In this document: one piece after another, positions 503-52,801 of the stretch | Layout of the letters: the number at the start of each line of letters is the position of its first letter | Numbering within the stretch: the first letter of the stretch is position 1 | Assembly: GCF_000711195.1 (NCBI RefSeq) | Contig: NZ_JOMR01000001.1 | Location: 62,001 to 126,000, forward strand | Length of the DNA: 64,000 nt | Reading direction: 5' to 3' | Origin: Thiomicrospira pelophila DSM 1534 | GTDB lineage: Bacteria; Pseudomonadota; Gammaproteobacteria; Thiomicrospirales; Thiomicrospiraceae | Translations under genes and position numbers: made by a program | Notes under the pieces: model-generated | Databases searched by the model: none | Told to the model about the DNA's origin: nothing | The model's input: the letters and a program-made list of their open reading frames with translations, nothing else

Positions 503-1912
<1,410 letters not shown>

Positions 1913-2776
1913 CTAAACCGCAGAAGCACCTGCGACAATTTCCGATAGCTCTTGGGTAATCGCTGCTTGACGCGCTTTGTTATATGATAATTTAAGATCT
2001 TTAATCATATTACCTGCGTTATCAGAAGCACTTTTCATTGCAACCATACGCGCAGATTGTTCACAAGCTACGTTTTCCACGACGGCACCAAATACGGTGC
2101 TCTCTACGAAACGTACCATTAAGGTATCTAATGCTTCTTTTGCATCAGGTTCATAGAGATAATCCCAATATTTCGCTTCCTTATCCGCTTCCGATGACTG
2201 CAAAGGAATAAGTTGTTCAATAGTAGGCACTTGAGTCATAGCCGATTCAAATTGGTTCGAGGCAACATAAACAGCATCCACTTTGCCTTGATCAAAATGA
2301 TCCAACATAACCTTAATCGTGCCAACTAAATCAATAATATGCGGTTTATCACCGATATCGGATTTTGACGCGACTACATTTCCGCCATAATGTTTAAAGA
2401 AAGTTTGCGCTTTCTTGCCAATTACAGCCAGCTCAACCTCTACATTTTCACTCTGCCAAGCATTTAGCTTTTTCAAGGTTTTACGGAAAAGGTTGGTATT
2501 TAAACCACCACATAAACCACGATCAGATGAAATCACGATTAAACCAACACGTTTAACTGGACGTTCAATCGTATAAGGATGCTTATACTCATGATGCGCA
2601 CCAGAAACATGATCAATTACACGCTTCACCTTCTCTACATAGGGACGGGTCGCCGTCATGCGTGCTTGCGCTTTACGCATTTTCGACGCCGCCACCATTT
2701 CCATGGCCTTGGTGATCTTTTGGGTATTTTTAACGGACGCTATTTGCGAACGTATTTCTTTACTACCGCCTGCCAT
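1913..2776 (-). CDS. atpG: F1 ATP synthase gamma subunit
   Basis: Rotor-shaft gamma subunit that couples c-ring rotation to the beta-subunit cycle. It has 287 residues. The N-terminal helix ([23 protein letters not shown]) and the C-terminal helix ([18 protein letters not shown]) are the conserved ends of the family. I chose the ATG at 2776, which gives MAGGSKEIR and has AAGGGGA upstream. The reading frame is open a little further to a TTG at 2782, which is less likely. It sits between atpA and atpD. Confidence 0.98.
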
Positions 2777-2788
2777 GGCCAAATCCCC

Positions 2789-4330
2789 TTAGTAAACGCC
2801 GGTTGATTTGAAAGACTCAATCGCTGCTTTTACGCCAGAAATAATCTCATCATTCCAATCACCTTTTTCATTTAGTTTTGCAACTAAATCTGAGTGAGAA
2901 GAATTGATATAGGCGTGTAGAGCGGCTTCAAAATCACCGATTTTATCGACTTCAACGTCGTCTAAGTAGCCTTCGTTAGCCGCGTATAGAGACGTCGCCA
3001 TTTCAGCAATAGTCAAAGGAGAGTATTGCTTTTGCTTCATCAACTCGGTTACACGCTTACCACGCTCTAACTGAGCTTTAGTTGCCGAGTCAAGGTCAGA
3101 TGCAAACTGTGCGAAAGCCGCCAATTCACGATACTGAGCCAAGTCAAGACGGATACCACCACCAAGCTTCTTAATCGCTTTAGTCTGAGCTGAACCACCA
3201 ACACGTGATACAGACAAACCAGCGTTAATTGCAGGACGGATACCTTGAGCAAATAAACCAGTTTCTAAGAAGATCTGACCATCTGTAATCGAAATTACGT
3301 TAGTCGGAACGAATGCAGAAACGTCACCCGCTTGGGTTTCGATAATTGGTAAGGCCGTTAATGAACCGGTTTTACCTTTAACTTCACCGTTCGTGAACTT
3401 CTCTACATAATCTTCGCTTACACGAGCGGCACGCTCAAGAAGACGAGAGTGTAGATAGAATACGTCACCAGGGAAAGCTTCACGTCCAGGTGGACGACGT
3501 AGCAATAATGAGATCTGACGGTAAGCTTGCGCTTGCTTGGTCAAGTCATCATAAATGATCAACGCATCTTCACCACGGTCACGGAAGTACTCACCCATAG
3601 AACAACCTGCGTAAGCCGCTAGGAATTGTAGGGCCGCTGGATCAGAAGCATTAGCTGCAACAACAATCGTGTTGTCCATTGCGCCATACTCTTCTAACTT
3701 GCGTACGATGTTGTTTACCGTAGAAGCCTTCTGGCCCATTGCTACGTATACACATTTAATACCAGTGTCTTTTTGGCTGATTACCGCATCAATAGCGATC
3801 GCTGTTTTACCGACCTGACGGTCACCGATGATCAACTCACGCTGACCACGACCAACTGGGATCATAGAGTCAATAGACTTGATACCAGTCATCATAGGCT
3901 GATCAACTGATTTACGATCGATAACACCAGGAGCAATACGCTCAATTGGTGATGTTGCTTTCGTATTGATTGGGCCTTTACCGTCGATTGGACGGCCTAA
4001 TGCGTCTACAACACGACCTAGCATTTCTGGACCAACCGGTACTTCTAAAATACGACCAGTACAAGTTACTTTGTCACCTTCCGAGATATGCTCATATTCA
4101 CCTAGAACAACCACACCAACAGAATCGCGCTCAAGGTTAAGCGCCATACCAAAGGTTTGTTCATCGAACTGAACCATCTCACCATACATCACATCTGACA
4201 CGCCGTGAATTAGCGCAATACCGTCAGCGATACTAACGACTGTGCCTTCACTGCCAGACTCTGCAGTCACTTTAAAACCGGCGATGCGGTCTTTGATTAA
4301 GTCACTGATTTCAGAGGGATTCAATTGCAT
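2789..4330 (-). CDS. atpA: F1 ATP synthase alpha subunit
   Basis: Non-catalytic nucleotide-binding alpha subunit of F1. The 513-residue protein starts [13 protein letters not shown] at an ATG preceded by GAGGAAG. The open frame continues to a TTG at 4345, which would give an atypical extension. The P-loop at 169-176 reads GDRQVGKT, while the form I expect is GDRQTGKT. The conserved [14 protein letters not shown]-like and [12 protein letters not shown] segments are present. It follows atpH closely and precedes atpG by 12 bases. Confidence 0.99.
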
Positions 4331-4345
4331 GTGTCTTCCTCTCAA

Positions 4346-4882
4346 TTAATAGGCTATTGCTGCGCCAAGTTTTTGTAATTGGGTGACCGCTGAGTTGTCT
4401 ACAACCCAGTCGCCCACTTTAATACGAATACCGGAAATTAAAGAATCATCGACGACATAGTCAATATCTACTTCGGCATCAAACTTGGTGTTTAAAGCAG
4501 CACTTAATTTACGTTGTTGCTCAGCCGTAGGCTTTCTTGCTGACGTTATTGTCGCTTTAATACGCTTCTCTGCTGTTGCTTTTAATTGATCAAACAATTT
4601 TGCAACCTCAGGTAACGCATTTAAACGCCCATTATCAGCAAGAGCGACTAATAGGTTTTTAACTGAGTCTGATAGTTTTGAACCCATAACCGATTCAAAA
4701 ACGCTGAGTTTTTCAGCGTCTGAATGGCGCGGGCTACCAATAAACTTTTCCATTTGAGCATCTTGAGCAATAACGGCCAAGTTGTTCAATGCATCAGACC
4801 ATTCAGCTAATTGCTTATTTTCAGTAGCAAAACTAAAAGCTGCTTCTGCATAAGGTCGAGCGGTTGTGATTAATTCTGCCAT
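4346..4882 (-). CDS. atpH: F1 ATP synthase delta subunit
   Basis: Peripheral-stalk delta subunit (OSCP equivalent), which holds the top of F1 to the b subunits. The 178 residues begin MAELITTARPYAEAAFSFA, the conserved helical N-terminal domain that binds alpha. They end with a domain carrying GIRIKVGDWVVDNSAVTQL, the family's C-terminal signature. Placed between atpF and atpA, with 10 and about 15 bases of spacing, as usual for proteobacteria. Confidence 0.97.
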   Translation of the reverse strand: MAELITTARPYAEAAFSFATENKQLAEWSDALNNLAVIAQDAQMEKFIGSPRHSDAEKLSVFESVMGSKLSDSVKNLLVALADNGRLNALPEVAKLFDQLKATAEKRIKATITSARKPTAEQQRKLSAALNTKFDAEVDIDYVVDDSLISGIRIKVGDWVVDNSAVTQLQKLGAAIAY

Positions 4883-43895: not shown

Positions 43896-43982
43896 GCTTG
43901 GTTAATCGGGTTGCCCATTCGCTATATTGTGTTAAAACGAGTAGAATGCGCGCTCACCTTTGATTTAACAGGAAATAATGCT

Positions 43983-45575
43983 TTGATCTCTACCGCGAAT
44001 ATCACCATGCAATTCGGCGAAAAGCCGCTATTTGAAAACATCTCGATTAAATTTGGCGGCGGTAACCGCTATGGTTTAATTGGCGCAAATGGCTGCGGCA
44101 AGTCCACCTTTATGAAAATTTTAGGGGGCGATTTAGAATCGACCGCTGGCCAGGTGATGCTCGACCCGAACGAACGTTTGGGTAAATTACGTCAGGATCA
44201 GTTTGCGTACGAAAGCTTTAGCGTAATCGATACCGTAATTATGGGCCACAGCGAACTGTGGGAAGTAAAAAAGGAACGTGACCGCATTTATGGCCTGGCC
44301 GAAATGTCGGAAGAAGACGGTTTAAAAGTCGCCGAATTGGAAGTGGAGTTTGGCGAAATGGACGGTTATACCGCGGATGCTCGCGCTGGCGAATTGTTAT
44401 TGGGGCTAGAGATTCCAGTTGAAATGCATTATGGCCCAATGTCAGAAGTCGCCCCCGGCTGGAAACTGCGTGTGTTATTGGCGCAGGCGTTGTTTTCTGA
44501 CCCAGATATTTTGTTGCTTGACGAGCCGACCAACAACTTGGATATCAACACGATTCGTTGGTTGGAAACTATTTTAAACTCGCGCAACAGCACCATGGTT
44601 ATCATTTCGCACGATCGCCACTTTTTAAACAGTGTCTGTACCCACATGGCCGATTTGGATTATGGCGAATTGCGTGTGTATCCGGGTAATTATGACGACT
44701 ATATGATGGCCTCTACTCAAGTGCGCGAACAATTATTGTCTGACAATGCGAAGAAAAAAGCTCAAATTGCCGAGTTAAAAACGTTTGTGAGCCGTTTTTC
44801 GGCCAACGCGTCGAAAGCGAAACAAGCGACCTCACGCGCTAAGCAGATCGACAAAATTGAACTAGCGGAAGTCAAACCTTCTAGCCGCATGAACCCATTT
44901 ATTCGTTTTGAGCAGGACAAAAAACTGTTCCGTTTGGCGGTTGAATGCGACAACGTCAGCAAAACCTTTGACACCACGCCAGTGTTAAACCGTTTTAGCA
45001 GCATGGTCGAAGCCGGTGAAAAAGTGGCGATCATCGGCCCGAACGGCATTGGTAAAACCACGTTGTTACGCGCATTAGTAGGTGATATCGAGTTAGATTC
45101 CGGCAAAGTTAAATGGGCTGAAAACGCCAGTATTGGCTATTACGCGCAGGATCACGCGCACGAATTTGCAATTGATATGACCTTATTCGACTGGATGAGT
45201 CAATGGAAACAACCTACCGATGACGAACAAGCGATTCGCGCCATTTTGGGTCGTTTATTGTTTACACAAAAAGACATAGATAAATCGGTCAAGGTGTTAT
45301 CGGGCGGTGAAAAAGGTCGCATGATGTTTGGCAAGCTAATGCTGGAAAAACCAAACGTACTGTTAATGGACGAACCCACGAACCATATGGATATGGAATC
45401 GATTGAATCCTTAAACCAAGCCTTGGTGGATTATCCAGGAACCGTGGTGTTTGTTAGCCACGACCGTGAATTCGTATCTTCACTCGCGCAACGCTTGTGG
45501 GTGATGTCACCAGAAGACATTGAGGACTTTAACGATAACTATGATGCTTACTTAACCCACAAAGGATTTGTGTAG
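43983..45575 (+). CDS. ybiT: ABC-F family ATPase, YbiT type
   Basis: Soluble twin-ATPase of the ABC-F family, which binds ribosomes and modulates translation. The 530 residues closely follow E. coli YbiT as I recall it. Walker A sites are GANGCGKST (34-42) and GPNGIGKTT; Walker B ends [11 protein letters not shown] and [12 protein letters not shown] chose a TTG start at 43983, giving [12 protein letters not shown], because AGGAAA lies nine bases upstream and the family begins there. The frame is open 24 codons further with no ribosome site. The interdomain linker carries [16 protein letters not shown]. Confidence 0.93.
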
Positions 45576-45872: not shown

Positions 45873-48458
45873 ATGAAACCCACTAGCATCAAAAAATTGA
45901 TTTTAATGGGCGCTTTTGTCGCCTCGATTGCGCTGTTTGGCTTGTCCTATTTAGTCGCCTCAAACATATTTGAACGCGTACTGACTCAAAACGCTCAAAA
46001 AGGCGCGGTAACGCTATCACAGCTCACTTTCGACAAGATGTATGAAGTGATGAGCCAAGGCTGGAGCCGCGACCAACTCAACCAGTTTTTAGAAGAAACT
46101 CAGCAAGCTTATCAACGCTCGGATATTGAAATCGATATTTACCGCAGTGAATTAGTTTCGAGCTTATACGGCGAACTCAAACAAGACATGAACAAAGACG
46201 TTAAGCAATGGATTAGCCCAGTGTTTCGAAATGGTGAAGCGGCCGTGCACGCCAAAGGCGATGTGCGTTTAAGTTTGTTGCCATTAAAAGCTGAGGCGCG
46301 CTGTTTGAGCTGCCACGCGAATGCTCAAGAAGGTGAAGTATTGGGGATTATGCATATCTCACAAGATTTAGGCTCGGAGATAAAAGAGGCTAAAACCCAG
46401 TTTTTCTGGTTTTTCTTGATGCTGTTGCCCTTGCCTTTATTGATGGCTTATTTCATTGGTTTGAAGCTTACTTCGGTATTAAACAAAGCCATCTCTACCC
46501 TTCACAATCAAGTGCAAAGTATTCAAAAGGTCCGCGACCTGAAAGACATTGAACCAAATGCCCTCTTTTCCGAATACAGCGAGTTTCAACAACTGGGCGA
46601 GCAGTTCCAAGGCCTGGCTGAAAAACTTCAAACCGTGGCGGTAGACCGCGATATTTTGGAGTTTGAAATTCAACTGTTGGATAAATTTATTATCACCTCC
46701 GAAGTGGTCAAAGATTGGAAAGAACATATCAATCATCTGATTATTGAGATGACCAAAATTCTGCCGATGTATGCCTTGTTTGTGGTTTTCCGCACCGATG
46801 ATGAAGAACGCTTTGCAATGGAAATTTTTTGGGCAGGCGTGCCAACCGATTCAATGAAACAGATGTTTGAAGACTCGGCTTGTGAACAAATTAAAAATCA
46901 TCCCATACTGCGTCATGACCCAACCATCGATATTCATCATTCGATTGCCGATGAAAGTCGCTCATTACGAGAAAATGCGCTCGACATCGAACTGCAAACC
47001 AAAAGCTTAATGCTCGACACGCCCAAGATTGGTGGTGTGGTGGGGATTGGTGTGCAATCGTTGGTTGGCCAAGACTTGACGCGTGCGATGGTGATTGAAA
47101 GTATTTTGACCACACTAATTAACGTGGTCGGTTCGATTAAAGCGATTAACAAATACACCCACGATTTGGAATATTACGCCACCCGCGATCCATTAACTAA
47201 CCTCTTTAACCAGCGCGTGTTTAATGAGATGCTTGAATACGAACAAGGACGCGCAGATCGTAAAAATTATGATTTTTCTTTATTGGTGTTGGACTTTGAT
47301 AACTTTAAAAACATCAATGATCGATTTGGGCATGCGTTTGGCGATTTAATGTTACAAAGCTTTGCGACCCAGGTGCACGATATTTTGCGCCCTGGCGATG
47401 TGTTTGGACGCTATGGTGGCGATGAATTTGTGGTGTTATTACCTGAAACCAATTTAAACCAAGCCTATGATGTGGCGCAACGCGTATTGGATCAGGTGCA
47501 TAAAATAGAAGAAACCGCGTATAACAACCAACGCGTGCATATGGCCTGCTCAATCGGGTTGGCGAGTTACCCGGAACACGCCGACTCCACCAAAGAGCTG
47601 TTTGTAGTAGCCGACAATATGATGTACAAAAGTAAACAAACGGGTAAAGATCAAATTTCGATACCAACCGATGATGAATTGCACGATTTGTATCACCGCA
47701 ATACCGAAAAAACCTCGTTTTTGTTGGACGTATTAGAAAATGAATCCTCAATCGAAGCCCACTTCCAGCCGATTTTAAGCATCGCGAACGAGCAGCCAAA
47801 AGTGGGCGTGCATGAACTGCTGATGCGCATTCGACACAAAGGCCGCTTAGTCACCGCGAATGAGTTTATTGATGTGGCTGAAAACATGGGCATTGTGCAT
47901 AAACTCGATTATATTTTAATTAAACAAGCCTTTAAGAAAATGCGTGACGCCAACTATAAAGGTCTGTTGTTTATTAATTTATCGCCCAAGGCGATGATCT
48001 TAAATGAGTTTATTAATCAGGTTAAAACCCTGGCACAGGAATTTAATATTTCGCCAGATTGCATTGTGTTTGAGCTGACCGAACGCGAAACGGTGCGCAA
48101 TATAAGCTTGCTAGAAAAGTTTGTGCGCGATCTCAAGTTTGAAGGTTTCCGTTTTGCGATTGATGATTTTGGTTCCGGCTTTTCATCTTTCCATTATTTA
48201 AAACATTTCCCAATCGATTATTTAAAAATTGAAGGCGAATTTATTAGCAATATGCTGCACGATCGGATTGACCACGCGTTTGTTGAAAGTGCGGTCGCCC
48301 TTGCCCAGTCAATTGGGATTGAAACCGTGGCCGAATTTGTGGAAGATCGTGAAACACTGGATGCGGTTAAAAAGCTCGGCATTCATTATGCACAAGGTTA
48401 TTTTGTCGGCTTCCCAGCTGCTGAGTTTATGCAACAGGTTCCTGAGCATGTAAAATAG
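45873..48458 (+). CDS. Haem-c sensing GGDEF-EAL c-di-GMP protein (DUF3365-like sensor)
   Basis: An 861-residue membrane protein. Helix 1 (about 9-30) and helix 2 (about 175-198) bracket a periplasmic DUF3365/Tll0287-like domain with a c-type haem motif CLSCH at 144-148. A coiled linker, a GAF-like region (about 265-425) and GGDEF at 515-519 follow. The RPGD inhibitory site stands five residues ahead of GGDEF. The EAL domain reads ELL at 648-650 instead of EAL, but IDDFGSGFSS, LKIEGEF and AEFVED are kept. Redox or gas sensing through the haem is likely from the family. It may be cotranscribed with the next two genes. Confidence 0.92.
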   Translation: MKPTSIKKLILMGAFVASIALFGLSYLVASNIFERVLTQNAQKGAVTLSQLTFDKMYEVMSQGWSRDQLNQFLEETQQAYQRSDIEIDIYRSELVSSLYGELKQDMNKDVKQWISPVFRNGEAAVHAKGDVRLSLLPLKAEARCLSCHANAQEGEVLGIMHISQDLGSEIKEAKTQFFWFFLMLLPLPLLMAYFIGLKLTSVLNKAISTLHNQVQSIQKVRDLKDIEPNALFSEYSEFQQLGEQFQGLAEKLQTVAVDRDILEFEIQLLDKFIITSEVVKDWKEHINHLIIEMTKILPMYALFVVFRTDDEERFAMEIFWAGVPTDSMKQMFEDSACEQIKNHPILRHDPTIDIHHSIADESRSLRENALDIELQTKSLMLDTPKIGGVVGIGVQSLVGQDLTRAMVIESILTTLINVVGSIKAINKYTHDLEYYATRDPLTNLFNQRVFNEMLEYEQGRADRKNYDFSLLVLDFDNFKNINDRFGHAFGDLMLQSFATQVHDILRPGDVFGRYGGDEFVVLLPETNLNQAYDVAQRVLDQVHKIEETAYNNQRVHMACSIGLASYPEHADSTKELFVVADNMMYKSKQTGKDQISIPTDDELHDLYHRNTEKTSFLLDVLENESSIEAHFQPILSIANEQPKVGVHELLMRIRHKGRLVTANEFIDVAENMGIVHKLDYILIKQAFKKMRDANYKGLLFINLSPKAMILNEFINQVKTLAQEFNISPDCIVFELTERETVRNISLLEKFVRDLKFEGFRFAIDDFGSGFSSFHYLKHFPIDYLKIEGEFISNMLHDRIDHAFVESAVALAQSIGIETVAEFVEDRETLDAVKKLGIHYAQGYFVGFPAAEFMQQVPEHVK

Positions 48459-48532
48459 TCGAAAAACCGACACGATAATTACAAAAACGTATAAAATCAG
48501 TTTAAACCTTTTTGATTTGGCTGGGGCTAACC

Positions 48533-49519
48533 ATGATTTCGCAACACCTCCCATCTTTGAGTCGGCGTCAACTGCTGCAACTCTCCGGCGCTTCCTTGCT
48601 GGCACCGCTTCTACAGGGGTGTGGGCCAAAAGAACCATTGGTTGTCGCTGGACACCCTTGGCCTGGTTACGAAATCTTTTTTATGGCACGTGATTTAGGC
48701 TGGCTCCCCATCCAAGGTATGCAATGCTTGGATAACGCGAATGCCTCCGAAAGTATGCAAGCTATTCGTGATGGGCGTGCGCAAGCGGCGATGCTTACCC
48801 TGGATGAAATGATCCGCTTATGCAGTGAAGGTTTTGATTTACGCGTGGCGATGATTTTTGATATTTCAGTGGGTGCCGATGTGGTCATTACTAAACCGGG
48901 CATCAACCATGCTCAAGATTTAGTCGGCAAAACGATTGGCTATGAAGCCTCTGCATTAGGGGCTTTGATGTTGCACGAGTTTCTTAGCCACAGCATTTTG
49001 GATCGCAGTGAGGTAAACTTGATTGATTTACCACATGATCAGCACAACCAGGCCTGGTTAAATGGTGAAGTGGATGCACTGATCACTTATGAACCCAATG
49101 CTACCAAGTTACTTAAATCCGGTGGACAGCGTTTGTTTGACAGCAAACAAATTCCTGACAAAATCTTTGATTTATTAGTGGTGACAGCCGATGCCGCTCA
49201 ACGCCATAAAGTGGTGTTACACGACATAATCGACATTCATTTCAAAGCGCTCCATCACTTCCGCACCAACCCTATGGACTCGGCCCATCGCATTGCTAAA
49301 CGCATGGACATATCCACGGAAGACTTGAGACAGGTTTACCGTGGCCTTTTAATCCCTGATGCCTTAGCCAACTATGCTTATCTATCCAATCAAGATTTGC
49401 GTATGATTCAAGCGGCCTCTCATCTGGTTAAAGTAATGCACGATGCCGGCATTATTGTCGACGATTGCGACTTGCGCACCATCTTTACCAACGAATTTAT
49501 TCCCAAGGAACGTTTATGA
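48533..49519 (+). CDS. NMT1/THI5-like substrate-binding lipoprotein
   Basis: A 328-residue periplasmic binding protein of the NMT1/SsuA-like class. The N-terminus has twin arginines (SRRQLLQLSGASLLAPLLQGC), with lipobox Cys30, so it is probably a lipoprotein and perhaps Tat-exported. AGHPWPGYEIFFMA and VDALITYEPNATKLL are typical ligand-domain segments. No permease or ATPase gene is adjacent. Instead, its stop codon overlaps the start of a PhnD-GGDEF-EAL sensor (ATGA), so a signalling role is likely. I chose the ATG at 48533. One repeat copy encodes NQAWLNG. Confidence 0.85.
   Translation: MISQHLPSLSRRQLLQLSGASLLAPLLQGCGPKEPLVVAGHPWPGYEIFFMARDLGWLPIQGMQCLDNANASESMQAIRDGRAQAAMLTLDEMIRLCSEGFDLRVAMIFDISVGADVVITKPGINHAQDLVGKTIGYEASALGALMLHEFLSHSILDRSEVNLIDLPHDQHNQAWLNGEVDALITYEPNATKLLKSGGQRLFDSKQIPDKIFDLLVVTADAAQRHKVVLHDIIDIHFKALHHFRTNPMDSAHRIAKRMDISTEDLRQVYRGLLIPDALANYAYLSNQDLRMIQAASHLVKVMHDAGIIVDDCDLRTIFTNEFIPKERL
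49047..49058. repeat. ACCAGGCCTGGT palindrome, in binding-protein gene
   Basis: Perfect 12-mer (14-bp with A/T flanks) encoding Gln-Ala-Trp. Confidence 0.9.
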
Positions 49520-52260
49520 TCGCCCGACGCTCTAATCAGCCCATTGGCTGGCTGTATTTGCTTGGGTTGATGCTTGTATTTTACACTTCCACACTTAAAG
49601 CCAAAGAGACCTTTGTGCTGGGCATTCTTGCGTTTCAACCCAAGCCACAGGTTGAGGCACGCTGGCAACCGATCATTGATCACCTTAATCAAAATCTAAC
49701 GGATATTGAGCTGCTGATTAGGCCGTTAAATTACAACGAATTAAATCTTGCCGTCGCCCGACGTGAGCTGGATTTTGTATTCACCAATTCTGCCTATTAT
49801 ATTGAGCTCGCGCATTCACAAGGCCTATCGAGTCCTCTAGTTAGTTTAATGAAGCTGCACGATGACACCCCTTTACGCGGCTTTGGCGGAGTCATTGTGG
49901 TAAAAAATAGTCGCACCGATATTTTGGATATAATTGATTTGAAAGGACAGCGCATCGCCTCACCAAAAAAAGGGTCTTTTGGTGGCTACATGATGCAAGC
50001 TTTTGAAATCAAAAAAGCGGGCGTTGAACCTGAGAGTTACCAAATATTTGAAACTGAAATGCCGCATGATCGAGCAGTTAACGCCGTACTTGATGGTTCG
50101 GCGGATGCCGCATTTGTTCGCACTGGTGTGTTAGAAGACATGCATGATCGGGGGTTAATTAAATTGTCCGACCTTCGTGTACTTAACTCACAAAGCTTAG
50201 CTGGGTTCCCATTCCTTATTTCTACTCAAATTTATCCAGAATGGCCGCTGGCGGCTATGCCACATGTCAAAATGGAGCATGCTGGGCAGTTAACTGGCGC
50301 ATTTTTAGCACTGCCTTATAAAAGTACGTTGTTGCGAGAAGCCAATATTTACGGTTTTAGTATCCCGGCCGACTACGAACCCATTCGAGAGCTGATGCGT
50401 AGCTTAAAAATACGACCTTATAACGTGTTGCCCGAGATTAGTTGGCGTGATATTTGGCAAGCACGTAAAATCGAAGTGATGACCGCTTGGATAGCACTGG
50501 CAATCATCTTGTTATTAGGCTTTTTATTAATCATTTATAACAAACGTTTATCGAATAGCTTAATTCAGGTCAAACGTAACGAAGAAACCCTGCGCATCTC
50601 ATCGGTAGCATTTGAAACCCAAGAAGCGATTTTAATTACCGATGCGGATCAAACCATTATCCGTGTCAATAAAGCCTTTACTGATATAACTGGCTTCAGC
50701 GCCAAAGAGGCAATTGGCCAAACTCCGCGCATTCTTAAGTCCGGCGTGCATGACACTGAGTTCTATCAAGAAATGTGGGGCGACATTATCGAAACGGGCG
50801 GCTGGCGGGGTGAAATATGGAACCGTCGTAAAGATGGCGAAATTTATCCTGAACACCAAGTGATTACCGCCATCAAAAATGCTAAAGGACAAGTCACACA
50901 CTACTTATCGACCTTTAGTGACATCACCCTTCGTAAACTCAATGAAGAACGCATCCACAATTTAGCATTTTATGACCCTCTTACTGGTTTGGCCAATAGA
51001 CGCTTACTAGAGGACCATATTGCTCAAGCCATGTCTGCCAGTTCACGAAACTTACATTATTGCGCTCTGCTTTTTATCGATCTAGACCATTTTAAAAATC
51101 TTAACGATACACTTGGCCACAAGCTAGGAGATGAGCTTTTAAAACAGGTCGCCGAACGTCTAAAATCTTGTGTACGTGAAGGCGATACCGTTGCCCGACC
51201 TGGTGGTGATGAGTTTATTATTTTATTGCAAGATATTGGCTATAAGCAGGAAGAGGCGGCAAATAATGCGAAGCTAGTAGCCGAAAAGATCCTCTCGCGC
51301 TTTAATGAGCCCTATCAATTATCAGAAAGCCAATATGTTTTAACGGCGAGCATTGGAATTAACTTGTTTATTGACCATTACGAAAATGCCGATGAAATTA
51401 TGAAACGTTCGGACTTGGCCATGTATCAAGCTAAAGCTCAGGGGCGAAATGCGATTTGTTTCTTTGACCCATCTATGCAGGAAGCGGCTTCTAAGCGTAG
51501 CGAAATTGAAACTGAGCTGAGGCGTGCAATAGAAGAAAAGGAGTTTGTACTCTACTACCAACCAAAATATTGTTTTTCTGGGCAATTACATGGTTATGAA
51601 GCCTTAATTCGCTGGCAGCACCCACAAAAAGGCTTGGTGCCACCGTTTGAGTTTATTGGCGTGGCCGAAGAAACCGGTTTGATTATTCCGATGGGGGGAT
51701 GGATTCTTAACCAGGCTTGCCAAACTTTGCAGGCCTGGCAAGACCAAGATGATAAAAAACATCTAGGCCTAGCGATCAATATTAGCCCACGCCAATTCCA
51801 TCAAGCGGAATTTGTTGATGATATCCAAGCAGCCTTAATCCATTATAAAATTGATGCCAGTAAGCTTGAGCTTGAGATTACTGAAAGCATGTTGATGAAT
51901 GATATCCAGGATACTGCAGATAAAATGCAAGCCTTGAAAGCGCTCGGTATTAATTTTGCATTAGACGACTTTGGCACCGGTTATTCGTCTTTGAATTACT
52001 TAAAAACATTGCCGTTAGGTTCTTTAAAAGTCGATCAATCTTTTGTGCGTGATATGTTGGTGGACGAGAATGATGCTGCGATTGTTAAAACCATTATTAC
52101 ACTAGCCAAAGAATTACAGTTGTCAGTTGTGGCGGAAGGCGTTGAAGAAGCTGCACAAGCGCGAATCTTACATGATTTAGGCTGTGATCTCTTGCAAGGT
52201 TATTTATATGGCCGCCCTTCTGCCGAGTTTGTTTCAGATGAACTTAAAACTTTTAAATAA
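49516..52260 (+). CDS. PhnD-PAS-GGDEF-EAL membrane sensor
   Basis: A 914-residue sensor with signal/membrane helix (about 10-30), a periplasmic PhnD-like phosphonate-binding domain (about 35-300, LGILAFQPKPQVEARWQPIIDHL to the Gly-rich FGGYMMQAFEIKKAG), a membrane helix (about 325-345), PAS (about 360-475), GGDEF at 563-567 with REGD inhibitory site, and EAL at 695-697. All key EAL residues (DDFGTGYSSL, LKVDQSF, AEGVEEAAQ) are kept. The cytoplasmic part is a clear paralogue of the protein at 29298-32003. The ATG at 49516 overlaps the preceding stop codon by four bases, so translation is coupled. Confidence 0.93.
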   Translation: MIARRSNQPIGWLYLLGLMLVFYTSTLKAKETFVLGILAFQPKPQVEARWQPIIDHLNQNLTDIELLIRPLNYNELNLAVARRELDFVFTNSAYYIELAHSQGLSSPLVSLMKLHDDTPLRGFGGVIVVKNSRTDILDIIDLKGQRIASPKKGSFGGYMMQAFEIKKAGVEPESYQIFETEMPHDRAVNAVLDGSADAAFVRTGVLEDMHDRGLIKLSDLRVLNSQSLAGFPFLISTQIYPEWPLAAMPHVKMEHAGQLTGAFLALPYKSTLLREANIYGFSIPADYEPIRELMRSLKIRPYNVLPEISWRDIWQARKIEVMTAWIALAIILLLGFLLIIYNKRLSNSLIQVKRNEETLRISSVAFETQEAILITDADQTIIRVNKAFTDITGFSAKEAIGQTPRILKSGVHDTEFYQEMWGDIIETGGWRGEIWNRRKDGEIYPEHQVITAIKNAKGQVTHYLSTFSDITLRKLNEERIHNLAFYDPLTGLANRRLLEDHIAQAMSASSRNLHYCALLFIDLDHFKNLNDTLGHKLGDELLKQVAERLKSCVREGDTVARPGGDEFIILLQDIGYKQEEAANNAKLVAEKILSRFNEPYQLSESQYVLTASIGINLFIDHYENADEIMKRSDLAMYQAKAQGRNAICFFDPSMQEAASKRSEIETELRRAIEEKEFVLYYQPKYCFSGQLHGYEALIRWQHPQKGLVPPFEFIGVAEETGLIIPMGGWILNQACQTLQAWQDQDDKKHLGLAINISPRQFHQAEFVDDIQAALIHYKIDASKLELEITESMLMNDIQDTADKMQALKALGINFALDDFGTGYSSLNYLKTLPLGSLKVDQSFVRDMLVDENDAAIVKTIITLAKELQLSVVAEGVEEAAQARILHDLGCDLLQGYLYGRPSAEFVSDELKTFK

Positions 52261-52282: not shown

Positions 52283-52801
52283 ATGAATCCACATCCTTTA
52301 AGCCAATATATGTCGAATGTACCGGACTTTCCCAAGCCAGGTATTTTGTTTCGCGATATTTCTCCTTTGCTCAAAAACCATTTGCACGCCACCATTGATG
52401 CCATGAGTGAGTTATTCAGCGAGCAAGAATGGGCCAACATAGACCATGTTGCTGGCATTGAATCGCGCGGATTTATTTTTGCCTCGGCTCTGGCCTACAA
52501 ACATAACAAAGGCTTTATTAAAGTACGCAAGCCCGGCAAGCTACCTAATGTACACGCCTCCATCGAATACGGTTTAGAATACGGACGCGATAAGCTTGAA
52601 ATGCAACAGGGCGATGGTTCGCGCATTGTTTTGCTGGATGATTTAATTGCCACCGGTGGTTCTATGCAAGCGGCTTGCGAACTTTGTGACAAGGTAGGTT
52701 ATCAAGTGGTCGGCTTGGCTTGTTTAGTGGACTTAGCGGCATTAAACAGCTTTGAGTATGCGGGAATGAAAGTACGCTCAGTAATTCAATATGATGATTA
52801 A
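52283..52801 (+). CDS. apt: Adenine phosphoribosyltransferase
   Basis: Salvages adenine to AMP using PRPP. The 172 residues carry the PRPP-binding motif VLLDDLIATGGS at 116-127. The N-terminal segment with FPKPGILFRDISPLL and GIESRGFIFASALA is typical of Apt. TAAGGTAATTGA precedes the ATG. It is 22 bases after the sensor gene, on the same strand, and might be read through from it. Confidence 0.97.
   Translation: MNPHPLSQYMSNVPDFPKPGILFRDISPLLKNHLHATIDAMSELFSEQEWANIDHVAGIESRGFIFASALAYKHNKGFIKVRKPGKLPNVHASIEYGLEYGRDKLEMQQGDGSRIVLLDDLIATGGSMQAACELCDKVGYQVVGLACLVDLAALNSFEYAGMKVRSVIQYDD

Follow-up and report, generated by a model that had tools for sequence, protein, structure and literature searches.

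A lipoprotein gene overlapping a PhnD-GGDEF-EAL receptor gene in Thiomicrospira pelophila: a proposed two-part ligand-sensing unit

Solute-binding proteins (SBPs) stimulate receptors of several kinds (PMC9602780), and in the NspS-MbaA system the loaded binding protein favours synthesis of cyclic di-GMP (c-di-GMP) while the free receptor breaks it down (PMC8967002). According to a review of 2022, SBP_bac_3 was the only one of the 27 Pfam families of the periplasmic-binding-protein clan to have been studied in c-di-GMP networks (PMC8846402). We analysed a pair of genes in a stretch of 64,000 nucleotides (nt) from Thiomicrospira pelophila DSM 1534 (contig NZ_JOMR01000001.1, positions 62,001 to 126,000; hereafter the window), which belongs to a complete genome of 2.1 Mb, and in which the gene of an NMT1-like lipoprotein overlaps that of a membrane receptor with a PhnD-like ectodomain and both GGDEF and EAL domains. 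The lipoprotein and the receptor form a widespread two-gene receptor unit. We consider, with a probability of roughly 0.7, that the lipoprotein acts in the periplasm as a dedicated solute sensor, not as a transporter subunit, and that its loaded form contacts the PhnD ectodomain of the adjoining receptor and so changes c-di-GMP. Among titles and abstract openings, with most subscription journals and bioRxiv outside the search, no description of such a lipoprotein-receptor pair was found.

The gene pair and its recurrence across genomes

All features of the pair lie on the + strand. The lipoprotein gene (48533..49519; ATG at 48533, stop codon at 49517-49519) encodes 328 amino acids (aa), and its end overlaps the start of the receptor gene (49516..52260, 914 aa) by the tetranucleotide ATGA (49516..49519). 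The N-terminus of the lipoprotein, SRRQLL...LLQGC, is of the twin-arginine translocation (Tat) type, with a twin arginine followed by a lipobox-like LLQGC that contains Cys30. Pfam places the protein in NMT1 (PF09084; E 5e-14, 53.1 bits against a cut-off of 20.5), the equivalog and subfamily cut-offs of SsuA and TauA are missed (SsuA_fam, 82.7 of 163.5 bits; taurine_ABC_bnd, 47.5 of 304), and the AlphaFold2 model (predicted local distance difference test, pLDDT, 91) matches the folds of SsuA (2x26, Z 30.6) and TauA (6ssy, Z 30.1). The receptor begins with a periplasmic PhnD-like domain at residues 36-284 (49621..50367; PF12974 Phosphonate-bd, E 2e-37, 129.1 bits against a cut-off of 27), which is followed by a PAS domain at residues 370-471 (50623..50928), a GGDEF domain at residues 484-645 (50965..51450; E 3e-52) and an EAL domain at residues 667-901 (51514..52218; E 2e-81). 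GGDEF domains synthesize c-di-GMP and EAL domains break it down, and on reading the sequence the motifs associated with these functions are intact in both, namely GGDEF and RxxD (REGD) in the former and EAL, DDFGTG and QGY in the latter. Open reading frames (ORFs), translations and Pfam matches all agree with an earlier note, made from the letters of the window alone, which had described an NMT1-like lipoprotein overlapping by ATGA a sensor with PhnD, GGDEF and EAL domains.

Conservation of the gene pair across genomes had been set beforehand as a test, and the pair recurs. Scanning a single genome per species yielded 189 pattern matches, 132 of which encoded relatives; the best 80 of these 132 were kept, and they come from Pseudomonadota with some Geobacter/Desulfuromonas. 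A signalling gene lies directly downstream of the lipoprotein gene in 79 of the 80 loci, as a PhnD-type receptor in 67 (those of L107, L123, L124 and L128 cut by contig ends) and as another kind of signalling protein, with no PhnD match, in 12; the remaining locus meets a contig end. The receptor start overlaps the lipoprotein gene by exactly 4 nt in 50/80 loci and lies within 20 nt in 76/80, with starts assigned by a script that prefers an overlapping start codon where one exists; the overlap exceeds chance. Moreover, homologues of the lipoprotein are present in 33 of 57 genomes searched, that of T. pelophila included.

A class draw of 370 genomes, in which lipoprotein homologues were accepted at E 1e-25 or better, gave 48 homologues in 43 genomes, and all 48 loci were inspected. 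The partners were 12 PhnD receptors (one of them, at L230, called on a fragment only), 30 other signalling proteins and 6 that our profiles did not assign. Because the 80-locus set was picked by likeness to the query, PhnD partners are overrepresented there (67/80) compared with the class draw (12/48). As for the six loci without an assigned receptor, the next ORF leaves the contig in L225, no adjoining receptor is present in L232, L239 has a HAMP-SpoIIE phosphatase, L254 a 500-aa ORF with a start like that of the L253 and L257 kinases, L259 a 217-aa ORF without a known domain, and L267 an ATP-binding cassette (ABC) permease.

Some single loci depart from the simple arrangement. In genome G007 (L037, 6960-12404) the lipoprotein gene is followed by two tandem PhnD-PAS-GGDEF-EAL genes and then by apt, and in G016 (L047, 6873-8790) the receptor gene beside the lipoprotein looks split into two frames, the same gene being a single frame in the near relative G010 (L048). 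The pair of L094, on a contig filed under Methyloprofundus, is 84% identical to that of the window in its lipoprotein, far above other Methylococcaceae, and the contig is perhaps a misplaced piece of Thiomicrospira.

Inheritance with the ectodomain and exchange of outputs

The lipoprotein tree was built from 169 distinct rows scoring 180 or more, with repeats of one genome counted once. It holds a clade of 140 rows (support 88) made up of 89 PhnD-partnered, 44 otherwise partnered and 7 unassigned rows, and inside this a 96-row clade (support 99) contains all 89 PhnD-partnered rows of the tree; outside it stands a 17-row clade (support 99) of homologues that are unpartnered or transporter-linked. 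The type of partner ectodomain changes 6 times on the tree (143 rows) against a shuffled mean of 43.7, and the type of partner output changes 22 times (137 rows) against a shuffled mean of 40.4; in the 83 PhnD-partnered rows of known output taken alone, the output changes 13 times against 26.6. Thus, given few ectodomain changes and many output changes, the lipoprotein keeps its type of ectodomain partner while outputs are swapped.

Distances between lipoproteins follow those between PhnD domains, with r 0.77 over 83 pairs, a value that 0 of 1000 permutations reached (maximum 0.14), and r is 0.59 among pairs more than 0.5 apart. As a control, we used the output domain of the same receptor and calculated partial correlations over the pairs more than 0.5 apart. 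Given the output domain, lipoprotein and PhnD domain remained correlated (partial r 0.48 for 46 GGDEF receptors and 0.67 for 33 HATPase kinases); given the PhnD domain, lipoprotein and output domain gave 0.10 in the GGDEF set and -0.03 in the HATPase set. Joint absence is seen in genome G001, where the syntenic spot retains a second PhnD receptor and apt, both the lipoprotein and its own receptor are absent, and the genome gave no lipoprotein match at E 1e-5. Pairing status also clusters on the PhnD tree (11 changes against 40.1 when shuffled), and residues L228, W314 and P306, which differ between paired and unpaired PhnD domains, may reflect relatedness, the unpaired rows being drawn from the 57 relatives and for the most part from one family.

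The outputs of the PhnD partners are GGDEF, GGDEF-EAL or HisKA-HATPase, to which receiver and Hpt domains are added in some cases, and a SpoIIE output was met once, in the HAMP-SpoIIE protein of the class draw. Because the same lipoprotein family also adjoins histidine kinases, the unit is not c-di-GMP-specific. Pfam scans of non-PhnD partners found HAMP in L054, L111, L154, L158, L161, L235, L237, L239 and L253, dCache_3 in L046, and neither of the two in L231. Among the 12 non-PhnD partners of the 80 loci, 4 were scanned by Pfam (L111, L154, L158 and L161, all with HAMP) and the rest were typed by in-house profiles; Pfam found nothing besides HAMP in the N-terminal parts of the L111 and L158 partners. 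A natural NMT1-PhnD fusion was not found among the ORFs inspected, the long frames in G165 and G232 being upstream extensions only, and L053, where the lipoprotein is joined to GGDEF in a fragmented genome, may be a deletion.

Several arrangements of related design were also noted. In L111, L165 and L171 the lipoprotein gene is followed by a non-PhnD receptor gene and then by a gene for a PhnD protein, and these three-gene arrays may show partner exchange. The T. pelophila genome itself encodes a 776-aa protein (L082, 4264-6594, - strand), its sole other match to the lipoprotein, in which an NMT1 domain and an amino-acid-binding-like domain (GlnH/ArtI models) stand in tandem on one GGDEF cyclase. 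The same genome also has a second pair of like design (locus L270, G000:C1:1712234-1719950), where a PhnD-type lipoprotein gene (3938-4858) overlaps by 4 nt the gene of an sCache-HAMP-PAS-GGDEF-EAL receptor (1491-3941), both on the - strand.

Binding pockets and candidate ligands

In TauA, the taurine amine is held by Glu106, Thr132 and Asp205, and the sulfonate by Gln30 and the backbone of Gly61, Gly79 and Thr132 (PMC6906117). In a profile alignment, with residues counted by us, Glu106 corresponds to D116 of the lipoprotein, Asp205 to D213, Gly79 to T89 and Thr132 to L142, and the Thr132 position is mostly Leu or Val in the lipoprotein family. Within the 140-row clade D116 is kept in 140/140 rows, D213 in 136/140 and E138 in 135/140, while D91 and E92 (codons at 48803..48808, + strand) are each kept in 138 of the 139 rows without a gap at the position; one member, L265, is without D91, E138 and D213. 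The 17-row outside clade has D116 and D213 in 17/17 and E138 in 15/17 rows, and D91 in 0/17. Twelve distant receptor-linked rows were kept apart in the pocket counts, with D91 in 2/12; in ten receptor-linked rows that lie outside the clade and are more distant, D116, E92, E138 and D213 occur in 10/10 each and D91 in 1/10. Hence the acids that hold the amine persist in all these groups, the sulfonate end is altered, and the Asp-Glu pair marks the receptor-linked clade. Our best guess from these residues is that the solute would be amine-bearing or cationic, and it is possible that the pocket acids instead form a buried salt bridge or a metal site. Because the pocket residues are near-invariant, the alignment suggests one ligand class for the whole clade.

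The model of receptor residues 1-352 (pLDDT 92) has PtxB, ArrX and AioX as its closest solved folds. In PtxB-like proteins a Ser/Thr loop takes part in oxyanion binding; the Ser-Thr-Ser-Ser-His stretch of PtxB is not kept here, and in its place stands mostly S-[LF]-G-G-[YF], in paired and unpaired receptors alike. Because this pocket loop is alike in the two groups, the idea that the PhnD domain is a pure docking part found no support, and the domain may bind a second ligand.

Neighbouring genes were also searched for a clue to the ligand. When the other ORFs of 143 loci were clustered, no pathway stood out: one large cluster was read as antisense artefacts, and the others, present in 5-15 loci, looked on one example each like common families (ABC ATPase, chemoreceptor-like protein, P-type ATPase) or short spurious ORFs, together with synteny among related species. 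The apt gene (52283-52801), which lies downstream of the receptor in congeners, was considered as a hint at a purine ligand and rejected; it also lies behind the unpaired PhnD receptor of G001, and thus looks like ordinary synteny. A further observation in the same family concerns L070 (5929-10613; similar gene sizes in L061-L073), which encodes an SsuA-like secreted binding protein without a lipobox, next to fatty-acid-desaturase-like, metallo-beta-lactamase-fold (like N-acyl-homoserine lactonases), TIM-barrel and EamA transporter proteins, with no ABC parts among the genes tested.

Mechanism, alternatives and related systems

By analogy with NspS-MbaA, we propose that the lipoprotein would be exported, probably folded and via Tat, and then lipid-anchored, and that it would bind its solute, most likely an amine-bearing one, in a TauA-like cleft whose lining includes almost invariant acidic residues. 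The loaded lipoprotein would then contact the PhnD ectodomain that the receptor of the adjoining gene exposes to the periplasm, and the receptor would relay the signal via its membrane helix and PAS domain, so that the balance between GGDEF (synthesis) and EAL (breakdown) shifts and c-di-GMP changes. The receptor at rest is plausibly a phosphodiesterase, because its residues 322-902 resemble the model of the phosphodiesterase DibA, though below the cut-off (647 of 980 bits). The earlier note had suggested a two-part ligand-sensing unit, and comparative genomics supports well such a unit without a transporter; we infer the physical docking, and with it a direct effect on the PhnD domain, as well as the amine-type ligand and the direction of the response.

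The lipoprotein could instead be an orphan transport SBP that feeds a permease encoded elsewhere, with the sensor adjacent by chance. Its fold and profile relatives are transport SBPs, and homologues adjoining ABC permease genes exist (L060, L267); we regard this reading as very improbable. In agreement with the earlier note, which saw no permease or transport ATPase nearby, the ORFs of the window include no transporter genes beside the pair, and the nearest ATPase gene (43911-45575), read by eye, has two cassettes and no membrane part and looks like that of an ABC-F protein. The complete T. pelophila genome gave 9 permease-domain matches, spread over 8 proteins. These proteins score best with the NCBIfam models for Opp/Nik (4), sulfate/tungstate/molybdate (1), PstA, PstC and ModB, and 3 of the 8 pass a model's cut-off; no TauC/SsuC-type permease was found among these 9 matches at E 1e-10. 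In controls, the permeases beside the distant homologues L060 and L267 matched the TauC, SaoP and SsuC models best, and the L060 permease used as query on the T. pelophila genome gave at best 14.5 bits (E 0.015). Linkage of the lipoprotein to an ABC transporter in other genomes was tested as well, and the permease-adjacent L060 and L267 proved to lie outside the receptor-linked clade; the transporter-linked and unlinked homologues form the separate 17-row clade, which is devoid of D91 and in which 16/17 rows are without a lipobox. A motif script found a lipobox in 135/143 receptor-linked rows, that is in 82 of 89 PhnD-partnered rows (4 more are truncated) and in 53 of 54 otherwise partnered ones, and a twin-arginine motif in 68 of those 82 rows versus 14 of those 53.

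The earlier note had also supposed that the haem sensor upstream may belong to the same circuit, and this was not supported. That gene (45873..48458, + strand) encodes a protein with one CxxCH (CLSCH) and, by Pfam, GGDEF and EAL domains, and the scores of its ectodomain with profiles for haem-c sensors of the Tll0287/Mcp40H-20 kind stay under the curated cut-offs (PF21563 Mcp40H-20_sensor, 21.9 of 27 bits; PF11845, 13.8 of 24.1). In favour of a three-part circuit, it lies on the same strand 74 nt upstream of the pair and adjoins the pair in 4 of the 7 congeners that hold it (G000, which is T. pelophila itself, G002, G003 and G004, in the last case on a contig whose end carries the start of the lipoprotein gene). 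However, a search with its ectodomain, which found the gene in 13 of the 57 genomes (T. pelophila included), did not find it in the pair-holding congeners G006, G007 and G008, and in the other genera G020, G030, G032 and G034 it is distant from the pair or on a separate contig. Because it adjoins the pair in only 4 of 7 congeners, the haem-c protein is probably not part of the unit and is best seen as an independent sensor, and the chance of a three-part circuit is slighter still than that of an orphan transport protein. A reading that we rate as unlikely, yet above these two, is that two independent sensors share one operon, with the lipoprotein and the PhnD domain each binding its own solute and the lipoprotein having its effect elsewhere or through a different receptor. 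Cases are on record in Pseudomonas in which the products of adjacent SBP and kinase genes do not interact (AgtB/PA0602 with AgtS, and PA4985 with AruS; PMC11113362), and PhnD receptors often occur without a lipoprotein, their pocket loop following the same GG[YF] pattern as in paired receptors. Nevertheless, the lipoprotein tracks the ectodomain rather than the output, it is absent from G001 together with its own receptor, and the signalling gene directly downstream is kept in 79 of 80 loci, all of which speaks against two independent sensors.

Besides the Pseudomonas cases, several observations weigh against a dedicated lipoprotein that docks on the PhnD ectodomain. Of 133 distinct PhnD rows, 45 have no lipoprotein in the fetched stretch and 5 have a non-adjacent one, which means that the PhnD domain may itself bind a separate ligand; the unpaired rows stem only from the 57-genome set of relatives, mostly from one family, and we draw no pairing rate from them. 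Since the adjoining receptor gives no PhnD match for 12 of the 80 related lipoproteins, whatever surface the lipoprotein contacts cannot be peculiar to PhnD domains. Common inheritance of neighbouring genes and the exchange of output domains as such account for part of the tree and correlation signal. Furthermore, when six permeases were used as queries, permease-like ORFs turned up somewhere in 4 of the 143 receptor-linked loci; those of L131, L135 and L252 are encoded on the opposite strand to the pair, and that of L080 lies more than 3 kb downstream. L232, a close homologue, has an ABC ATPase gene upstream and no adjoining receptor.

If the lipoprotein is a dedicated sensor as proposed, a wider picture can be drawn, which we offer tentatively and hold to be somewhat less probable than even. 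One lipoprotein family, with the same probably amine-bearing solute, would serve as a 'plug-in' sensor for interchangeable receptors; in the largest branch, a Venus flytrap would dock on the PhnD Venus flytrap of another chain, and one signal, possibly joined by a second ligand of the PhnD domain, would be answered in dozens of bacterial families by c-di-GMP enzymes as well as by histidine kinases. The inputs of many receptors that set c-di-GMP are still to be found, and another binding-protein family is now tied to such receptors and to kinases in many bacterial families. Since variation at the pocket residues is so slight, identifying what one member binds would provide numerous receptors at the same time with an input that can be tested, and the 83 paired PhnD domains collected here alone make co-folding and interface prediction practical.

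Compared with the sulfonate-binding proteins TauA and SsuA, the lipoprotein has the same fold (Z ~30), and D116 and D213 align with the amine-coordinating Glu106 and Asp205 of TauA; unlike for those proteins, no TauBC or SsuBC was found, and D91-E92 stands in the sulfonate-contact region. The receptor ectodomain shares its fold with the oxyanion-binding proteins PtxB/PhnD, ArrX and AioX, of which AioX and ArrX are thought to signal to kinases, but here the PhnD domain is fused to the receptor and the characteristic PtxB stretch is lost. TorT-TorS and LuxP-LuxQ use other SBP families and other ectodomains, and their outputs are kinases. In these systems, as proposed for the pair, the membrane sensor learns of a ligand through a binding protein (PMC11113362). 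The nearest likeness is to the polyamine receptor of Vibrio cholerae, NspS-MbaA, where a membrane GGDEF-EAL protein is under the control of a binding protein in the periplasm (PMC8967002). In the window, similarly, the SBP gene stands directly beside the GGDEF-EAL receptor gene. NspS is not known to have a dedicated transporter, and for the lipoprotein, too, none was found beside the pair, nor a TauC/SsuC-type permease in the genome. NspS is a PotD-like protein of the polyamine family, whereas the lipoprotein is NMT1/TauA-like, the ectodomain of its receptor is a PhnD Venus flytrap, and its family also adjoins histidine kinases; since its best families are NMT1, SsuA and TauA, we did not file it as an NspS homologue. 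In our reading, by analogy, the lipoprotein would work as NspS does with MbaA, yet with proteins of other families.

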